24,712 nucleotides of DNA, taken from positions 1 to 24,712 of IMG/VR virus record IMGVR_UViG_3300020187_000205. One strand, 5' to 3'. Position numbers and translations under genes: made by a program. Under the pieces are notes generated by a model. It saw only the letters and a list, made by a program, of their open reading frames with translations, had not been told where the DNA came from and did no database searches. This DNA is from a virus. This document shows positions 1,381 to 17,957 of the stretch, piece by piece. Position 1 is the first letter of the stretch, and each line of letters starts with the position of its first letter.

Positions 1381-2139
1381 ATGGCGTTACCAAATTCTAG
1401 ACAAACTTTGATCGATCACTGCCTACGTAGGTTGGGCGATCCTGTAATCGAAATTAATGTCGATGAAGACCAGATACAAGACAAGGTCGATGACACTTTG
1501 CAGATGTATCAGGAATTTCATAGTGATGCAACATACAGAACTTATCTGAAACATTTGATTACTCAGGAAGATAAAGATAATGGATATATCCCAATATCTA
1601 CTAACGTTCTTTATATCTCACAAATGTTTCCGATTAATCAAGTTGGAGGCACGTCATCTATCGGAATGTTTGATGTTAAGTATCAAATGATGTTGAATAG
1701 TATGGGTGATTTTTTGAACTTTGGTGGTGGAATGTCATACTACTATCAGTTCGAACAGTATCTAAGTTTTTTAGATCAACTGCTTCAAGGCACTCCGCAA
1801 ACTACTTGGTCACGGCATCAAGATCGTTTGTATATTTGGGGTGAATGGTCTAACAAGGATCTTCAAGTAGGCGACTATGTCGTTGCAGAAATATATTCCA
1901 TAGTAGACCCTACTGTTCATACAAGCATTTTTAATGACATGTTTGTAAAAAATTACCTTACTGCTTCTATCAAACAACAATGGGGTATTAACATGTCTAA
2001 GTTTGAGGGCATGCAATTACCAGGTGGGGTTACCGTTAACGGTAGACAGATATTTGAAGATGCTAATGCAGAATTAGAAAAACTAGAAGAGAAATTGAGA
2101 ATCGAACAAGAGTTACCACCTGATTTTTTTGTAGGTTAA
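1381..2139 (+). CDS. 13: Neck protein gp13 (head completion / neck connector)
   Basis: This 252-residue protein resembles T4-like gp13, especially marine versions. The N-terminus has the typical CLRRLGDPVIEINVDEDQI stretch (residues ~15-33), followed by an acidic helix. A central aromatic segment follows around the YYYQFEQYL motif, and an RLYIWG motif lies near residue 146. In T4, gp13 and gp14 form the neck that seals the filled head and accepts the tail. T4 gp13 is about 309 residues, so this copy is shorter. The ATG is preceded by AAAGGG at good spacing and by a late promoter. gp14 starts three bases after its stop. The call rests on motif pattern plus the intact gp13-gp14-gp15 order, and no signal peptide or membrane segment is visible. 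Confidence 0.82.
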   Translation: MALPNSRQTLIDHCLRRLGDPVIEINVDEDQIQDKVDDTLQMYQEFHSDATYRTYLKHLITQEDKDNGYIPISTNVLYISQMFPINQVGGTSSIGMFDVKYQMMLNSMGDFLNFGGGMSYYYQFEQYLSFLDQLLQGTPQTTWSRHQDRLYIWGEWSNKDLQVGDYVVAEIYSIVDPTVHTSIFNDMFVKNYLTASIKQQWGINMSKFEGMQLPGGVTVNGRQIFEDANAELEKLEEKLRIEQELPPDFFVG

Positions 2140-2142
2140 CAA

Positions 2143-3060
2143 ATGGCAACAAATAAATATTTTTCTCAGGGTGCCAGATCAGAGCAACTCTTGTATGAAG
2201 ACTTGATTGTCGAGTCTTTAAAAATGTATGGGCAAGATGTCTATTACATGCCAAGAGATGCTGTCAATACCGACACTATTTTTGGTGACGAAACTTCTGC
2301 TATTTTCGATGACGCCTACAAGATTGAAATGTACATCGAAAATGTAGAAGGATTCGATGGCGAGGGCGACTTGTTTACGAAGTTCGGAGTAGAGATTCGT
2401 GACCAAGCAACCTTTGTAGTTGCTCGACGTAGATGGTTACAACAAGTAGCACCATACGAGCACGAAGAAGACACTAAACAATTTTTCAGACCAAGAGAAG
2501 GAGATCTTATTTTCCTTCCGTTGTCTGGTTCTATATTCGAAATACAAAAGGTGTTTGACGAAACTCCTTTCTATCAATTAAAAAATCTTCCAGTGTTTAG
2601 ACTTTCATGTGAACTGTTCGAATTCAGTGGTGAAAATTTTGAAACTAATATTGCAGAAATAGATAATGTAGAAATTTTTGGTCACCAACATCAAATGACA
2701 TTTGCCGAAGTTTTCACAACAGAGAATATGAATCTTCCGGGTGCTTTTGAAGTCGGTGAAAGAGTTCGACAAGTTCAAGGTGAAGGTCTTACTGCTTATT
2801 ATGTTTTTGGTGACGTTGTTAGTTATGACGCTTCGGACCCAGATGCAATAGTGCTAAGTATAACTAACATGAGCACTTCGGATGGACTGTTTCATTCGTT
2901 TAGCACAGTCGCAAGTGTAATAGGTTTAGAAAGTAATGCAGTAGGTATTCCTGTTACTGTTATTGAGAAAGAAATGAGTCAGAATCAAAATGATGTTTTC
3001 GAAGATGTTGCTGATGGTATCCTTGATTTTTCAGAATCTAATCCGTTTGGGAACCCATAA
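2143..3060 (+). CDS. 14: Neck protein gp14
   Basis: This 305-residue protein matches the gp14 neck family of T4-like phages. It shows the characteristic SEQLLYEDLIVESLKMYGQD stretch (residues ~13-32), the YYMPRD motif, and the near-invariant core IENVEGFDGEGDLFTKFGVE (residues ~65-85). It works with gp13 to close the packaged head and form the docking site for the tail. T4 gp14 is about 256 residues, so the extra length is probably in the C-terminal third (residues ~200-305), which I cannot match to a known motif. The start lies three bases after the gp13 stop, with AGGT as a weak ribosome site. The stop codon shares one base with the next start (TAATG), indicating translational coupling to gp15. 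Confidence 0.87.
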   Translation: MATNKYFSQGARSEQLLYEDLIVESLKMYGQDVYYMPRDAVNTDTIFGDETSAIFDDAYKIEMYIENVEGFDGEGDLFTKFGVEIRDQATFVVARRRWLQQVAPYEHEEDTKQFFRPREGDLIFLPLSGSIFEIQKVFDETPFYQLKNLPVFRLSCELFEFSGENFETNIAEIDNVEIFGHQHQMTFAEVFTTENMNLPGAFEVGERVRQVQGEGLTAYYVFGDVVSYDASDPDAIVLSITNMSTSDGLFHSFSTVASVIGLESNAVGIPVTVIEKEMSQNQNDVFEDVADGILDFSESNPFGNP

Positions 3061-5015
3061 TGTTAGGTAATTGGTTTTATCACGAAAGAATTCGTAAAGC
3101 AGTTGCGGTATTCGGATCATTGTTCAATAACATATATGTCGTTCGCCATAATAGCGCGGGTGATGTTATTAACGAGACCAAAGTTCCTTTATCTTACGCA
3201 CCTCGTCGAGATTTCATGGACAGAATTTCTGGCATGGAAATCGGTGAGCAACAAGAGCGACAGATTGCGATCAAACTTCCAAGGATGTCTTTTGAAATTT
3301 TAGCAATACAATATGATGCTGCTCGACAGTTATCTAAGGTAGGTGCAAGAACTATTGCGGGAACGTCCGACTCCACAAAGGCACGAAGGATGTACAATCC
3401 TGTTCCTTATAATTTACAATTTCAATTAAATGTATATGCTAGAAGTCAAGATGACGCGCTTCAAGTAGTCGAACAAATTATACCTTACTTTACTCCACAA
3501 TATACTGTAACAGTAAAACCTCTTACCGGATACGATATCACAGAAGACACGCCTATTAAACTTGATGGTGTGGTAATGCAAGACGATTATGAAGGGGCAA
3601 TCGAAACGCGAAGAACTATTATATACACGCTCGATTTTGAAATGAAAATTAACATGTATAAAGTCGTCGAATCGGCATCATCTATTATCAGAACAGTCGA
3701 AACAAGTCTCTTGGATTTCGATACCGGTGGTTTGCTTGCGTTCTGTAAAGTCGAGTCTAATATTTTGAGTGGAGATAGCGCAAGTCTTCCTTCTAATATA
3801 TTAGAAGATGCGGGGCAGACTGCGACTAATACTATATCGTTAAAAAATACCCTCAATGATATACAAGGTTACTCAATAATAACCGCGCCAGAGTTTGGCA
3901 CAGCAATTATAGATTCAGATGGAACGTGGACGTATACACCCAATCCAGATGCTTATGGACCAGACGCTTTTGTTGTTGGAGTAGATGTAGGGCAAAATGT
4001 AATAGAAAATATTAACATTGCTATCAATGGTCCGGTTAATGCTGGGGTTGATGATGCAGTAGACGATTCGTTCACACTGAATTACTCTGGCGCAGAAACC
4101 TTGACAATGAATGTTGCAAGCAACGATTTGTTTGAAACTGTAGGTGATATCACCCATACGGTGCAGTCACAACCCGCACAGGGAACAGTTACTATTATCG
4201 ACTCTCTTGCAGGGACTTTTTTATACACTCCACCAGCAGCACCCTTCGGCGGTACTGTTACTTGGCAGTATAGAGCAATCCCAGACGGTGCAGAAAACTC
4301 AGCAGAAGTGGGCGATGTTACAATAGTCGTTACAGACACTAGTAATATAGATGACGACTTTGCTAACGTAGTATTCTTAGTCAATGCTGTTGATGGTGAG
4401 AGTAGTCCTACAACATACGCAAGTGATGTTTCTACTTTTAATAATTCACTAGTCACAGTTAATGGTGTCCAAGCGGAAGCGGGATTGACTACATTATTCC
4501 AAGCAAAGTCAATGGAAGGAAATGGCACTAATGGCAGAATTGAAAGTACGTTCACAGGCACAGGCGGAGTATTAGGTGCTGGTGATTTCACCATGGAAGG
4601 GTGGTTTTACACGTTACAGTCAGGTAACTACGAGATGGCATCTACCCATTCAAATGAAGGGGTGAATGACGGTTTAGGGTTACAACAAATCGCAGTTACT
4701 CACGAAGTAAGAGTGATTAGAGGATTTAGTAATTTTGATACTTCTGGGACTCCATTAAATCTTAACGCATGGAATCACGTAGCAGTAACACGAGAAGGCA
4801 CTGACCTAAGAATTTTTGTCAACGGTGTTCTGGGACGTACTGTAACGAACGATACTCAAAATTATAGTTCAAACTTTTTGCAGATAATGGATGCATCCCG
4901 TAATGGGTCAGGCAGTGCCTGGGAAGGATTCATCGAAGATTTCAGAATCACAAAAGGTGTCGCACGATATACTGCGAACTTCTCTGTTCCAACACAAGCA
5001 TTTCCGACGAGCTAA
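3060..5015 (+). CDS. 15: Proximal tail sheath stabiliser / tail terminator gp15 fused to cadherin-like and LamG-like domains
   Basis: Residues ~1-215 are gp15-like: an N-terminal MLGNWFYHERIRK segment, LFNNIYV, the KVPLSYAPRRDFMDRI stretch, the LPRMSFEI motif, and VEQIIPYFTPQYTVTV (residues ~137-152). In T4, gp15 (272 residues) forms a hexamer that caps the tail tube and sheath and joins the tail to gp13/gp14. This protein has 651 residues. Residues ~255-325 and ~330-428 look like two cadherin/VCBS-type domains (TWTYTPNPDAYGPDAF; VASNDLF; FLYTPP). Residues ~432-651 look like a LamG/concanavalin-A-like domain, with FTMEGWFY, WNHVAVTREGTDLRIFVNG and FIEDFRITKGVARYT. The reading frame is continuous, so the fusion is real in this sequence. 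The start overlaps the gp14 stop by one base. The extension would place about six adhesive domains at the neck; that role is inferred. Confidence 0.83.
   Translation: MLGNWFYHERIRKAVAVFGSLFNNIYVVRHNSAGDVINETKVPLSYAPRRDFMDRISGMEIGEQQERQIAIKLPRMSFEILAIQYDAARQLSKVGARTIAGTSDSTKARRMYNPVPYNLQFQLNVYARSQDDALQVVEQIIPYFTPQYTVTVKPLTGYDITEDTPIKLDGVVMQDDYEGAIETRRTIIYTLDFEMKINMYKVVESASSIIRTVETSLLDFDTGGLLAFCKVESNILSGDSASLPSNILEDAGQTATNTISLKNTLNDIQGYSIITAPEFGTAIIDSDGTWTYTPNPDAYGPDAFVVGVDVGQNVIENINIAINGPVNAGVDDAVDDSFTLNYSGAETLTMNVASNDLFETVGDITHTVQSQPAQGTVTIIDSLAGTFLYTPPAAPFGGTVTWQYRAIPDGAENSAEVGDVTIVVTDTSNIDDDFANVVFLVNAVDGESSPTTYASDVSTFNNSLVTVNGVQAEAGLTTLFQAKSMEGNGTNGRIESTFTGTGGVLGAGDFTMEGWFYTLQSGNYEMASTHSNEGVNDGLGLQQIAVTHEVRVIRGFSNFDTSGTPLNLNAWNHVAVTREGTDLRIFVNGVLGRTVTNDTQNYSSNFLQIMDASRNGSGSAWEGFIEDFRITKGVARYTANFSVPTQAFPTS
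4353..5012 (+). other. LamG-like (concanavalin-A fold) domain at the gp15 C-terminus
   Basis: This covers residues ~432-651 of the gp15 fusion. The signature strands are AKSMEGNGTNGRIES, DFTMEGWFY, LNAWNHVAVTREGTDLRIFV, and the closing IEDFRITKGVARYTANF followed by PTQAFP. This arrangement is typical of Laminin_G_3-type domains in marine phage structural proteins, which are thought to bind glycans. Sugar-binding residues cannot be assigned by eye. Confidence 0.7.
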
Positions 5016-5024
5016 ATATAAACT

Positions 5025-8000
5025 ATGGCACACGATAATTTCATAGACAAGAAAAGACGAAGAATCAATCTGCGTGATGTGCATATTGAAAACGTTTTGC
5101 CTGAACATTTTGGTTCGTCATACCCAAAGTTTATCAATCTTTTAGAAAGATATTACGAATGGCAAAACCAATATGACGCAACTGAGTTGTTGAATCATTT
5201 ATTTGCTGCGCGTGATATTACCGAAACAGACCTGACGCTTCTTAACTTTATCGAAGATGAGTTGTTGTTAGGTGGAAGTTACTTCGAAGGGTCTGGTGAC
5301 AAACGGGCAGCAGCAAACTTTTCTAGTGTGTTGTTTCGTGCAAAGGGTTCTAAATATTCTATCGAATGGTTTTTCAGATCTTTCTTTAACCTTGATCCAG
5401 AAGTAATCTATACCAAAGAAAACGTTTTTCTTATTGCCGATGAAAACAATCCTTCGTCGTTGATATCTAAAATTGGTCCATCGTCATTAAGATATATCAC
5501 TAATGATAAACTCTATCAGACGTTTGCTATTCTTGTTCGTGCTGGAATTCCAGTAAACGAATGGAAAAAATTATTTAAATTATTTGTTCATCCTGCCGGT
5601 ATGTATTTGGGTGGAGAGGTGTTGTTAGAAAGTGTTGCTGATTTGAACCTGACCTCGCAGGGTTCTGGCGAAACTACTACATTAGAATCACCAGTTATAA
5701 CTCTCGCGCCATCACATGAACCTGTGCCAGAAGGTATTACTGTTACTTACACCGTAGGTGCAGGAACCTCGTTGAATGGAGCAGGAGCAACCGAACAAAC
5801 CTACCTATATCCCGGAACATATAAATGGTACTTAGAACATGTATCGACGGTAGATGATGACTTTGTTGTGGTACCTCCACAGATAGAGACACATACTCCT
5901 TCCATTGAAGCATCAAGTTTTGCTACCAAAGGAGATCGAATACTGTCAATCAATTCTGATCCGACTGGTTGGGAAGGATTTGATATCACAGGTCCAGGGA
6001 TTTTTCGTGGTACTAGTATCGTATCTGTTGTAGGCGGTGGTACAAACACTATTCAATTGTCTGATGGTATTACTTCTGATCTTCCTGCATTGACAGCGTT
6101 TACAGTTACAGGAGGTTGGGAAGATTTAGAAGTAACCGTTAAAACTGAATTGGGTTCGACTCCTCCTGCTGATGTTCCTGGTAAAGTTTACGACACCCCT
6201 ACTTCTGGATCGCTTTCGTTTCAAATAGCAAACGATTTCTTTTTAGCAGCAGAAGGTTTAGAAACATATAGGATTCATATACTGGATTGGTGTAATGCTC
6301 CTGTAAGAAATGAAGTACTTGATAACTTATATGGTATTGCAGATGTTCATTACATCGTATCTACTACGGAAGTCAACGAAGTTGGTTCTGTTGGTACTTC
6401 AATTAACATAACAGGAACTAATTTACCAGATGGAACCATTTATTACTATCTAACAGACGAAAATACTAGCAGCGGAATAAATCAGGTCGCAGATGCTAAT
6501 TTGACTGCAAATCCAAACGACTGGGATGCTGCACAACCCAATGCCTTTGGATTTAATAACAGACAACCTATTGTAGTATCATCAAATGCTGCAAGTTTTA
6601 CAGTATATCCTAAAAAAGATTATATAACAGAAGGGGATCAAACTTTTCGTGTTTTCTTAGTAGGACCAGCATCTTACAGTGATTATCATAACGATGCGAA
6701 TACAGTTGAACTTCTTGCATACTTACAACCTCCTGCTACTGGTTTAGACAATTTAACACCAACACAAGAAGAATCAGTTCAGCAAGGACAGTTGATTACA
6801 ATTAAGGACACTTCGGTTTATCCACAGTATGCTGTTTCTCAAAATAATATTACTGAGGGCGGTTCTATTGTTCCGACAATCACTGTAACAAACGAACACA
6901 ATCCAAACGGTGATTATTTTTACAATCAAAGCACAGAAACACTTACCTCTGATGGAGTGCTTTGGGAAATCCTTGATGACTTGGATGGAAGAATTACAAC
7001 TACCAGCGGAAGAATTGCTTTTAATGCAGCATCGCAAACACCAACATTATCTGCAACCACAGTAGATGGGTATTATAGAGGAACACAAACTTCAACGATT
7101 AGAATTACAAACCACGATGTTCCTGCTCAAATATCTACGAATACTTTTAACATGGTTGATGCTGCTCCTAGTGCTGCTGTAATCACCGGACCTACTGCTA
7201 TATCAGAAGGAGCATCTGGTTCGTGGACATTTACTCGAAAGAATACTGCGCCCGGAACAACTTATTATTGGTGGGTTACTGGGGCAGAAGACGCAGATTT
7301 TTCTTCTGTTCCAAGGACAGGTTCACGATCAACCTTGACAGTAGGCACAACTGCTGCTAGTATTACTGCTGGCGGCGATACCATGATCATGACATCCACC
7401 ATGGATCTTACTGCTGTCTTAGATCAACTTCCTCCGGAAGGCACACAAGCATTCACTGTGAATGTTTCCGATACTGTTGGCGGTGCCGCGATAGCAACCT
7501 TCGACTCTTCGATTACTGATGTTGTTCCTGTATATGAAGTTTTAACCTCGGCAGGATCATACACAGAAGGTAGCACTGTTGTTATTGGTTTGAATGTTAC
7601 TAACTCTGTTGGAGAAAATGTAGACTACGCAATTGAAGATGATGGCACTGGAAGATACAGTGTTGCTGGAGGAACTTTCGTCTGGAACGGATCAAGTTAT
7701 GCAAATCTAAATCTTCCTACAACTGTTCTTGCAACGGAAGAGGAGACTCAGACTATCACCATTACGGTTACAGGTCAGAGCACAGGAATACAAGATACAG
7801 TTGAATTCGATTTGACAGACCTTGTTCCAACATATGGATTGACTATTGCCTCACCTGTAACGGAAGGCAATGACATAACACTAGATTTGAGTGTAACCAA
7901 TTCTGTTGGCGAAACCGTTAGTTGGGCATTGACCGGAGATACTCAAGGACGTGCTAGTGCTTCGAGTGGTGACTTTACCGCACCGACTTATGATGACGTT

Positions 8001-9515
8001 GTTGTCGGTACAACAGAAAACACAGGGTTTGTTGGTCCCGAAGTTTGGACGTTCACCGTTACTGGTGATGACAGTGGTCAAACAGCACAACAAACAGTTA
8101 CCGTCAATGAAGCAGGAATAGTAAGAACTAATGTAATCGACATGGTTGCTACAACCGTAACAGAAGGCGATGGTTACAGTTTCACTGTCACTCAAACATT
8201 ACAGAACACCGCCACTTATGCGGATTTTGCATATGAGATTACTGGTGATACACGTGCTAATGTTGGATCGACTACTATTACTGCTGCTACATTTGCATCT
8301 AATAGCGGTGTGGTTACAATCAGTCCTACCACGACTTCTAGTGATGTTTATGAAGGTCCACAGACGATTACAATTTCTGGAACTGGAACAAGTGATACGT
8401 TTAGTCTTGTAGATGCTGCAACTGTTTACAATGCTGGATCGTTCAATGTATCAAGTATTGCAGAACAAGGCGGTGTTGCTAGGTTCACCCTTTCGGGCAC
8501 CAATATTCCAAACGGTACTCTTGTTCCATATACAATTACAGGTGTTCAAGCAGCAGATATTGATGTAGCATTGACTGGAAACATTACAATGGGTGGCAGT
8601 AACAGTGGATTTATTGATGTCACTGCTGTCTATGATAATGTTGCGATTGAAAACGAAACTCTAACTTTGACTGCGGGTGGTCAATCCGATACGGTTGATA
8701 TTACTGATGCTGTTCCTACTGTTACTTACACTGCGTCAACCAATACGCCGGTAACAGAAGGTTTCCCAATAGAATATACTATTGTAGCAACGGAAGTAAA
8801 CGGTGGTTCGTATGAAGATGTTACGGTTACAATTACGGGCACTGCTTCGAACAGGGTCACCGCTGGTAATTTTGCAATCACCGCAGCAGAATTTACTTCG
8901 GGTAGCGGTACGGTAACAAAGAATTACAGTGTAATAAGCGATCCTGTATATCAAGGGGACGAAAATGTCACCATCGATGCGGTTGGTGATACTTACGGTA
9001 ATTCAGCACCACAACAAACTGTGACTATTACAGATCAGGCAGCAGCAATCAATAGTGTTTCTGGTCCTACTGAGATTAATGATGGAGGAGCAACGACTTT
9101 GGTTGATCTTGGCGCACAAGTAAATGCTGCTGCGCAATCCGGACCTGCACCTGGACCGGACAAAGCAGAAGTTACATTTAGTTGGAACTCTCTATCAGAC
9201 GGTGATTTCAGATTCACTGATACAAGCACCGGTTTCGGTAGTAGCAACCTTCCGATCACCAGAACATGGTTGCTTGCAGGATCGTCAAGCGATTACGATA
9301 TCAGATTCGATCTCGACGGTTCATCATCGGCATTATTTTCAGGCACCACCGGATCATGGTTAGACGCAAGCGGTAGTCATGTTTGGGTCTCGCGGGACGA
9401 ATCACTTACGCAAGCAAATGGCAATGTGTTCGGCACTCTTAGTATAAGAGATGGCACAACACTAGATCTTTTAGATGCCATAACTGTCACTATGACAGCA
9501 ACTTATGAACAGTAA
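5025..9515 (+). CDS. Giant virion structural protein with N-terminal anchoring domain and tandem Calx-beta-like repeats
   Basis: This 1496-residue protein has two parts. Residues ~15-205 form a charged, aromatic domain beginning IENVLPEHFGSSYPKFINLL with YYEW nearby, and including FRAKGSKYSIEWFFRSFFNL. I recall similar N-termini on large marine phage structural proteins, where they probably anchor the protein to the virion. Residues ~215-1345 are beta-rich modules recognised by an (I/V)-T-E-G motif with the Glu near 236, 452, 611, 728, 848, 947, 1047, 1147 and 1245. From 848 onward the spacing is 98-100 residues. Several modules are preceded by a D-x-x-P linker (TDVVPVY, TDLVPTY, TDAVPTV). 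Residues ~1346-1496 form a different C-terminal domain. There is no signal peptide, membrane segment or catalytic motif. The ribosome site is weak. The gene lies between gp15 and gp16, where T4 has no gene. The role as a neck or tail fibre is inferred. Confidence 0.8.
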   Translation: MAHDNFIDKKRRRINLRDVHIENVLPEHFGSSYPKFINLLERYYEWQNQYDATELLNHLFAARDITETDLTLLNFIEDELLLGGSYFEGSGDKRAAANFSSVLFRAKGSKYSIEWFFRSFFNLDPEVIYTKENVFLIADENNPSSLISKIGPSSLRYITNDKLYQTFAILVRAGIPVNEWKKLFKLFVHPAGMYLGGEVLLESVADLNLTSQGSGETTTLESPVITLAPSHEPVPEGITVTYTVGAGTSLNGAGATEQTYLYPGTYKWYLEHVSTVDDDFVVVPPQIETHTPSIEASSFATKGDRILSINSDPTGWEGFDITGPGIFRGTSIVSVVGGGTNTIQLSDGITSDLPALTAFTVTGGWEDLEVTVKTELGSTPPADVPGKVYDTPTSGSLSFQIANDFFLAAEGLETYRIHILDWCNAPVRNEVLDNLYGIADVHYIVSTTEVNEVGSVGTSINITGTNLPDGTIYYYLTDENTSSGINQVADANLTANPNDWDAAQPNAFGFNNRQPIVVSSNAASFTVYPKKDYITEGDQTFRVFLVGPASYSDYHNDANTVELLAYLQPPATGLDNLTPTQEESVQQGQLITIKDTSVYPQYAVSQNNITEGGSIVPTITVTNEHNPNGDYFYNQSTETLTSDGVLWEILDDLDGRITTTSGRIAFNAASQTPTLSATTVDGYYRGTQTSTIRITNHDVPAQISTNTFNMVDAAPSAAVITGPTAISEGASGSWTFTRKNTAPGTTYYWWVTGAEDADFSSVPRTGSRSTLTVGTTAASITAGGDTMIMTSTMDLTAVLDQLPPEGTQAFTVNVSDTVGGAAIATFDSSITDVVPVYEVLTSAGSYTEGSTVVIGLNVTNSVGENVDYAIEDDGTGRYSVAGGTFVWNGSSYANLNLPTTVLATEEETQTITITVTGQSTGIQDTVEFDLTDLVPTYGLTIASPVTEGNDITLDLSVTNSVGETVSWALTGDTQGRASASSGDFTAPTYDDVVVGTTENTGFVGPEVWTFTVTGDDSGQTAQQTVTVNEAGIVRTNVIDMVATTVTEGDGYSFTVTQTLQNTATYADFAYEITGDTRANVGSTTITAATFASNSGVVTISPTTTSSDVYEGPQTITISGTGTSDTFSLVDAATVYNAGSFNVSSIAEQGGVARFTLSGTNIPNGTLVPYTITGVQAADIDVALTGNITMGGSNSGFIDVTAVYDNVAIENETLTLTAGGQSDTVDITDAVPTVTYTASTNTPVTEGFPIEYTIVATEVNGGSYEDVTVTITGTASNRVTAGNFAITAAEFTSGSGTVTKNYSVISDPVYQGDENVTIDAVGDTYGNSAPQQTVTITDQAAAINSVSGPTEINDGGATTLVDLGAQVNAAAQSGPAPGPDKAEVTFSWNSLSDGDFRFTDTSTGFGSSNLPITRTWLLAGSSSDYDIRFDLDGSSSALFSGTTGSWLDASGSHVWVSRDESLTQANGNVFGTLSIRDGTTLDLLDAITVTMTATYEQ
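7182..9044 (+). repeat. Tandem ~100-residue Calx-beta-like protein repeats (about six)
   Basis: These cover residues ~720-1340 of the giant protein. Successive modules start with ISEG (728), YTEG (848), VTEG (947), VTEG (1047), IAEQG (1147) and VTEG (1245), giving spacings of 120, 99, 100, 100 and 98 residues. The 848 and 947 modules share VTNSVGE at the same offset. The DNA of the copies has diverged, so this is an old protein-level repeat and not a recent DNA duplication. Confidence 0.75.

Positions 9516-16838: not shown

Positions 16839-16852
<14 letters not shown>
15146..16852 (+). CDS. 20: Portal vertex protein gp20
   Basis: This 568-residue protein has the T4-like portal pattern. IMRYRGVSQNSEVDMAVEEI lies near residues 67-86, followed by NESI. 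FRSWYIDGRIFYHLLID is near 136-152. A long conserved block runs from RAPERRIFYIDVGNLPRGKAE (~264) to DFWLPRREGGRGTEISTLPGG (~320-340), followed by LNVPAQRLEQENNFSLGRSN. It forms the dodecameric ring for head nucleation, gp17 docking and neck attachment. T4 gp20 is 524 residues. The extra length is a C-terminal tail of residues ~491-545 rich in Ala, Pro, Glu and Lys, probably disordered. The ribosome site is GAGGATC. The last 14 bases overlap the collagen-like gene, indicating coupling. Confidence 0.96.

Positions 16853-17957
<1,105 letters not shown>

Follow-up and report, generated by a model that had tools for sequence, protein, structure and literature searches.

A gp15 tail terminator with an Ig-like stalk and an exchangeable LamG tip, a probable neck-mounted adhesin of marine T4-like phages

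The stretch of DNA analyzed here (the window; 24,712 nucleotides of IMG/VR virus record IMGVR_UViG_3300020187_000205) encodes a gp15 protein that continues, beyond its conserved core, into two Ig/cadherin-like domains and a LamG tip. This core with its C-terminal extension is probably a neck-mounted accessory adhesin of a marine T4-like phage. The features of the window on which the following description is based are listed below.

1381..2139, plus strand: gp13, head-tail adaptor (PHROG 211)
2143..3060, plus strand: gp14, neck/head-closure protein (PF11649, PHROG 460; T4 gp14 E 1e-24)
3060..3710, plus strand: gp15 core (tail terminator/tail sheath stabiliser), residues 1-217 (PF16724, PHROG 227, PDB, AF2, Foldseek)
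3711..3785, plus strand: linker LDFDTGGLLAFCKVESNILSGDSA (residues 218-242), which replaces the C-terminal arm and (S/D)D(Y/F)GF motif usual in gp15
3786..4043, plus strand: Ig/cadherin-like domain 1, approximately residues 243-328 (Pfam Big_9/Cadherin_5, alignment)
4044..4355, plus strand: Ig/cadherin-like domain 2, approximately residues 329-432 (second Big_9 and Cadherin stretches in Pfam)
4356..5012, plus strand: LamG (ConA-like jelly-roll) tip, residues 433-651 (Pfam core 503-632)
4289..5012, plus strand: exchanged cassette (sliding identity against L008 and dS by domain)

The gene at 3060-5015 (plus strand) is a single ATG-started frame of 651 aa without internal stops. The initial annotation, made from the sequence alone, had described it as one uninterrupted frame joining gp15 to two cadherin/VCBS-like domains and a LamG-like domain, and profile searches confirmed each of these parts. 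The T4-gp15_tss family of Pfam (PF16724) matched residues 6-217 (E 5.8e-67), PHROG 227 (tail sheath stabilizer) residues 1-216 (E 2e-70) and T4 gp15 from the PDB residues 4-217 (E 2e-26), placing the end of the core at about residue 217. Downstream of it, Pfam recorded two stretches of Big_9 (the better at 254-312, E 1e-10), Cadherin_5 (E 2e-8) and Laminin_G_3 at 503-632 (E 3e-14, above the cut-off).

Structure prediction was performed for the whole chain and for the tip alone. In the AF2 model of the whole chain, pLDDT was mostly 70-88 over residues 10-200 and below 50 for most of the remainder, including the Ig stalk, for which the input was shallow and partly misaligned, with fragments holding LamG alone probably placed against the Ig region, as one alignment showed. 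When the gp15 core was compared with the PDB by Foldseek, the top matches were T4 gp15 structures (9mkb, 4huh and 4hud; TM-score 0.57-0.70 on the target, approximately 0.7 for 4hud), followed by further neck and terminator proteins. Residues 1-215 are thus gp15-like in both sequence and fold, which disposes of the objection, foreseen in the initial annotation, that they might not be.

Residues 430-651, modeled separately, reached a pTM of 0.73, and Foldseek related them to ConA-like jelly rolls such as domain 4 of the arabinanase AbnA (TM-score 0.67). By profile and predicted jelly-roll fold, the tip is a Laminin_G_3 domain with a putative sugar or protein ligand; LamG folds bind proteins too. 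Matches of the tip to clostridial neurotoxin binding domains were set aside as generic jelly-roll similarity (approximately 10-18% identity) that says nothing on toxicity.

The junction between core and extension deserves separate description. The linker shares 80-100% amino acid identity with those of L008, L076, L012 and L014. The D-(Y/F)-G-F motif, present in most of the plain gp15 proteins aligned, is absent from the window protein. In T4, residues 178-256 of gp14 contact residues 203-245 of gp15, its C-terminal arm (PMC12270204, preprint). This arm is missing from the window gp15, where the linker and Ig domains stand instead, and it is possible that the linker/Ig region supplies a substitute contact with gp14. 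On sequence grounds the protein was classed as a variant gp15, because membership in the Pfam and PHROG families rests on the core, the arm being accessory and not family-defining. Core homology, fold and position after gp14 are common to it and T4 gp15 (PF16724, PHROG 227; PDB 4HUD, 9MKB), which has 272 aa and, unlike the window protein, no linker, Ig domains and tip in place of the arm.

The T4 gene order gp13-gp14-gp15 is kept in the window, and its gp14, which is plain, is the predicted contact partner of gp15. Downstream, gp17, gp18 and gp20 were recognized by PHROG, while gp16 and gp19 were assigned by similarity to Phage C48C1. Proteins of 1496 and 406 aa lie between gp15 and gp16, whereas in T4 gp16 is next to gp15. 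The N-terminus of the 1496-aa protein (5025-9515) matches a baseplate-wedge family weakly (PF23786, E 2.6e-6), and its long C-terminal part appeared by eye to be repetitive and fibre-like in kind. A collagen-repeat tail-fibre-like protein is encoded 3' of gp20 (16839-17957).

IMG/VR scans returned the same fusion from independent marine contigs (84-100% identity, identical copies included). An assembly chimera or annotation artefact might be imagined in view of L007, in which gp15 is frameshifted and whose closest match in the core has a different tip. However, many independent contigs carry the fusion, identical copies among them, and gene order is conserved; this explanation is so improbable that the independent contigs can be taken to rule it out.

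Among at least 181 distinct complete gp15 proteins gathered, a biased sample from a pattern-based IMG/VR search (best 80 loci), at least 122 measured 230-290 aa and at least 24 had 380 aa or more. A tree built from 160 gp15-core sequences grouped the Ig-extended members in one clade (SH-aLRT 96). Several clade members called plain on the tree were contigs cut within the gp15 gene; with these scored as unknown, two state changes accounted for the two-Ig extension. The sole real exception in the clade was L191, whose gp15 of 236 aa ends after the linker, without Ig domains or tip, and is directly followed by a wedge-like gene. This suggests either a loss or an early state, and since L191 lies inside the clade, the module is dispensable there. 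Upstream of gp13 in the same contig (L191:1-1874), two frames resembling, by eye, a sulfotransferase and a 2OG-Fe(II) dioxygenase occupy the expected place of fibre genes. No psbA was detected in the relatives searched, which were mostly fragments, while the positive control, Bellamy, yielded psbA.

The gp15 proteins could be arranged into a series of architectures. Plain proteins of approximately 260 aa were represented by L020 and by C48C1, which is the nearest among deposited phages. Eleven contigs encoded the core and two Ig domains only (416-460 aa; L093, L094, L095, L175, L176, L179, L183, L185, L186, L188 and L194), six being checked by Pfam and the others assigned by length. On the same type of stalk, three mutually unrelated kinds of tip were found. 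The Laminin_G_3 tip occurred in the window, L008 and L076. An FG-GAP/propeller-like tip was carried by proteins of 1056-1269 aa (L012, 1269 aa; L014-L018, 1056 aa; L178, 1070 aa), FG-GAP_2 being identified by Pfam in L012, L014 and L178. A leucine-rich-repeat-like DUF285 tip was present in L177 (636 aa, E 3e-34) and, by Pfam, as the out-of-frame tip of L007. Other endings were also noted: a 423-aa gp15 (L169:2860-4128) has a cupredoxin-like end (YYCKNHAKMGG), to which a segment of the gp14 insert of L098 is similar, with a weak Copper-bind match, and two gp15 proteins (L242:922-2709, 596 aa; L141:4001-5653, at least 551 aa) have long extensions that matched no Pfam family.

A marked difference in divergence was observed along the gene. 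Between the window and L008, dS was 2.13 in the core, 1.94 and 1.78 in the two Ig domains, and 0.095 in LamG. In the core and Ig domains, where dS is near saturation, dN/dS was approximately 0.04-0.08 and synonymous change was dominant. Nucleotide identity was about 95% at 4289..5012, compared with approximately 74-79% 5' of it and 77% just past the gene, the climb occurring at about gene position 1230. Against L076, identity was 74% in the core, 94.6% in Ig2 and 99.5% in LamG, with the climb at the start of Ig2. In L007, a core like that of the window is joined to an Ig1 like that of L076 and to a different tip. Nucleotide comparison thus shows tips moving between diverged phages as cassettes. 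In L007 (L007:3949-4650) gp15 is stopped at 234 aa, at the core/linker junction, by a one-base deletion, and Ig and DUF285 sequences follow out of frame; this is either an assembly error or a natural off-state.

In the gene for the 1496-aa neighbour, identity to L008 is mostly 44-84% in the first part and mostly 89-100% from about position 6815, which reads as a second mosaic junction. In L195, a DUF285 array akin to the tip of L177 was found in a large gene lying upstream. This makes neighbouring fibre-like genes a possible source, from which tips may be drawn.

The cassette-like behavior of the tips supports an adhesive, outward-facing role. A displayed extension could also be a structural or regulatory decoration, stabilizing the neck or retracting tail fibres in the manner of the T4 neck, whose fibritin whiskers bind the long tail fibres (PMC3004832, PMC12270204), and the occurrence of stalk-only versions agrees with this. 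Nevertheless, whole tips were recently swapped for unrelated folds and near-identical LamG domains sit on divergent cores, which is typical of outward-facing recognition domains and less so of a fixed intravirion contact; a purely decorative function is considered unlikely. It is quite unlikely, too, that the Ig and LamG modules are mobile passengers spreading among structural genes with little benefit. Such an origin would fit the frequency of LamG in unrelated cyanophage structural proteins, the similar mosaic jump at about 6815 in the neighbouring gene and the lack of an extension in L191, but the Ig domains have persisted throughout a clade of deep divergence, dN/dS being low wherever it was measured, and several contigs maintain continuous frames of up to 1269 aa.

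The initial annotation had also raised the prospect that the extension is common and is cut off by proteolysis, leaving ordinary gp15 in mature virions. Extended homologues were indeed found, and as a whole clade. A motif resembling that of the T4 prohead protease ([LIFPV]xE[GAS]), however, is not conserved at the junction, and its single match in the window protein, at residue 202, falls inside the core. Moreover, gp15 is a tail protein and the T4 prohead protease acts in the prohead. Removal by proteolysis is accordingly regarded as very unlikely, and an adhesin retained on the neck stays the preferred reading.

A second neck protein was found to carry comparable additions. In sister phages with a plain gp15, gp14 was 567-695 aa long and contained an internal LamG, detected by Pfam in L019/L020, L098, L210, L227, L228, L244 and L249. 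For L238, PF13385 exceeded the cut-off on a 585-aa frame in a genome-wide search; the whole-protein Pfam scan of gp14 gave no LamG. In the cultured cyanophages P-HM1, S-MbCM25 and Bellamy, gp14 measured 442-486 aa and showed GxGY-type repeats by eye, the insertions being unexplained. Mapped onto T4 numbering, the extension of gp15 starts at residue 216, and the insert of gp14 falls on the C-terminal side of residue 186; given the contact known from T4, both additions are therefore located at the gp14-gp15 interface. The gp14 insertions of marine T4-like phages resemble the window gp15 in placing a beta-rich domain on a neck protein near this contact. They differ in being internal, with the gp14 C-terminus kept and gp15 lacking the Ig extension, whereas the window gp15 is extended at its C-terminus. 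None of 170 distinct pairs had both gp14 and gp15 of 380 aa or more, a result that did not reach significance (Fisher p 0.13) and was not independent of phylogeny. Mutual exclusion of the two extensions was consequently rejected as a claim.

Neck appendages have precedents in other phages. In the lactococcal siphophages 936 and TP901-1, neck passage structures (NPS) bind carbohydrate; a neck carbohydrate-binding module of a 936 phage, as a GFP fusion, bound host cells weakly, and the TP901-1 collar was reported to be non-essential (PMC6669499). Domain shuffling is known to concentrate in neck passage proteins (PMC10684548). The window protein resembles the NPS in layout, both being neck proteins with a conserved base and variable, accessory C-terminal modules, which in the NPS bind carbohydrate. 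In contrast, the NPS is a separate siphophage collar protein, thought to be an 18-mer, while in the window the module extends gp15 itself, the ring protein of a T4-like myophage; the N-terminus is gp15 and not the BppU-like one of the NPS, so the analogy is functional only. T4 fibritin (wac) whiskers occupy the same neck region as is proposed for the extension, but fibritin, attached through gp13, is a fibre of its own, a trimeric coiled coil without LamG or Ig, whereas the Pfam domains of the window protein are gp15, Ig and LamG. The same domain types (Ig-like, LamG/ConA) serve as virion decorations in Hoc and in cyanophage structural and baseplate-wedge proteins, and concanavalin A domains were noted, with no position assigned, in pelagimyophage structural proteins (PMC7029224).

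Among 50,697 deposited phages, no record covered 80% of the window protein or had the full gp15 fusion, and the LamG matches listed sit in other proteins. A literature search for LamG or Ig domains in gp14 or gp15 found no papers. A neck adhesin of this kind had been called unusual in the initial annotation; this holds for the full fusion, but neck decoration as such is preceded by 936, TP901-1 and cyanophage gp14. Its domain reading stood, while the clade-wide extension, the tip cassettes, the stalk-only relatives and the LamG domains on sister gp14 proteins had escaped it.

As for the mode of action, the gp15 core would be incorporated into the virion at its presumed assembly site, forming, as is usual for gp15, a hexameric ring where the tail meets the gp13/gp14 neck. 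Sixfold display there is inferred because the T4 homologue is a hexamer (PMC3004832). The conserved linker, in place of the C-terminal arm, would lead to a two-Ig stalk outside the neck, which would present the LamG head outwards. Displayed six times, the head would gain avidity for a ligand bound with low affinity, probably a glycan on the host or on particles; its role would be an accessory one. Heads are interchangeable cassettes across the clade, which has members with no head and members with a LamG, an FG-GAP/propeller-like or a leucine-rich-repeat-like one.

These observations suggest the neck as an extra gripping site for cells or particles. More tentatively, and with somewhat less than even confidence, the neck may be an evolvable second recognition site, at which gp15 or gp14 carries cassette-swappable adhesive heads at their interface, independent of the tail fibres and tuning attachment to hosts or marine particles. 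The results point to the presence, in a contractile-tail phage, of a recognition device that sits on a core assembly protein and at a distance from the baseplate. If so, tail fibres by themselves would not suffice to predict what hosts or particles marine myophages are able to bind, and gp15 would be a natural scaffold for sixfold display, accepting C-terminal additions of over 1000 residues. With stalk-only, tip-bearing and extension-less members in one clade, this role is directly testable.
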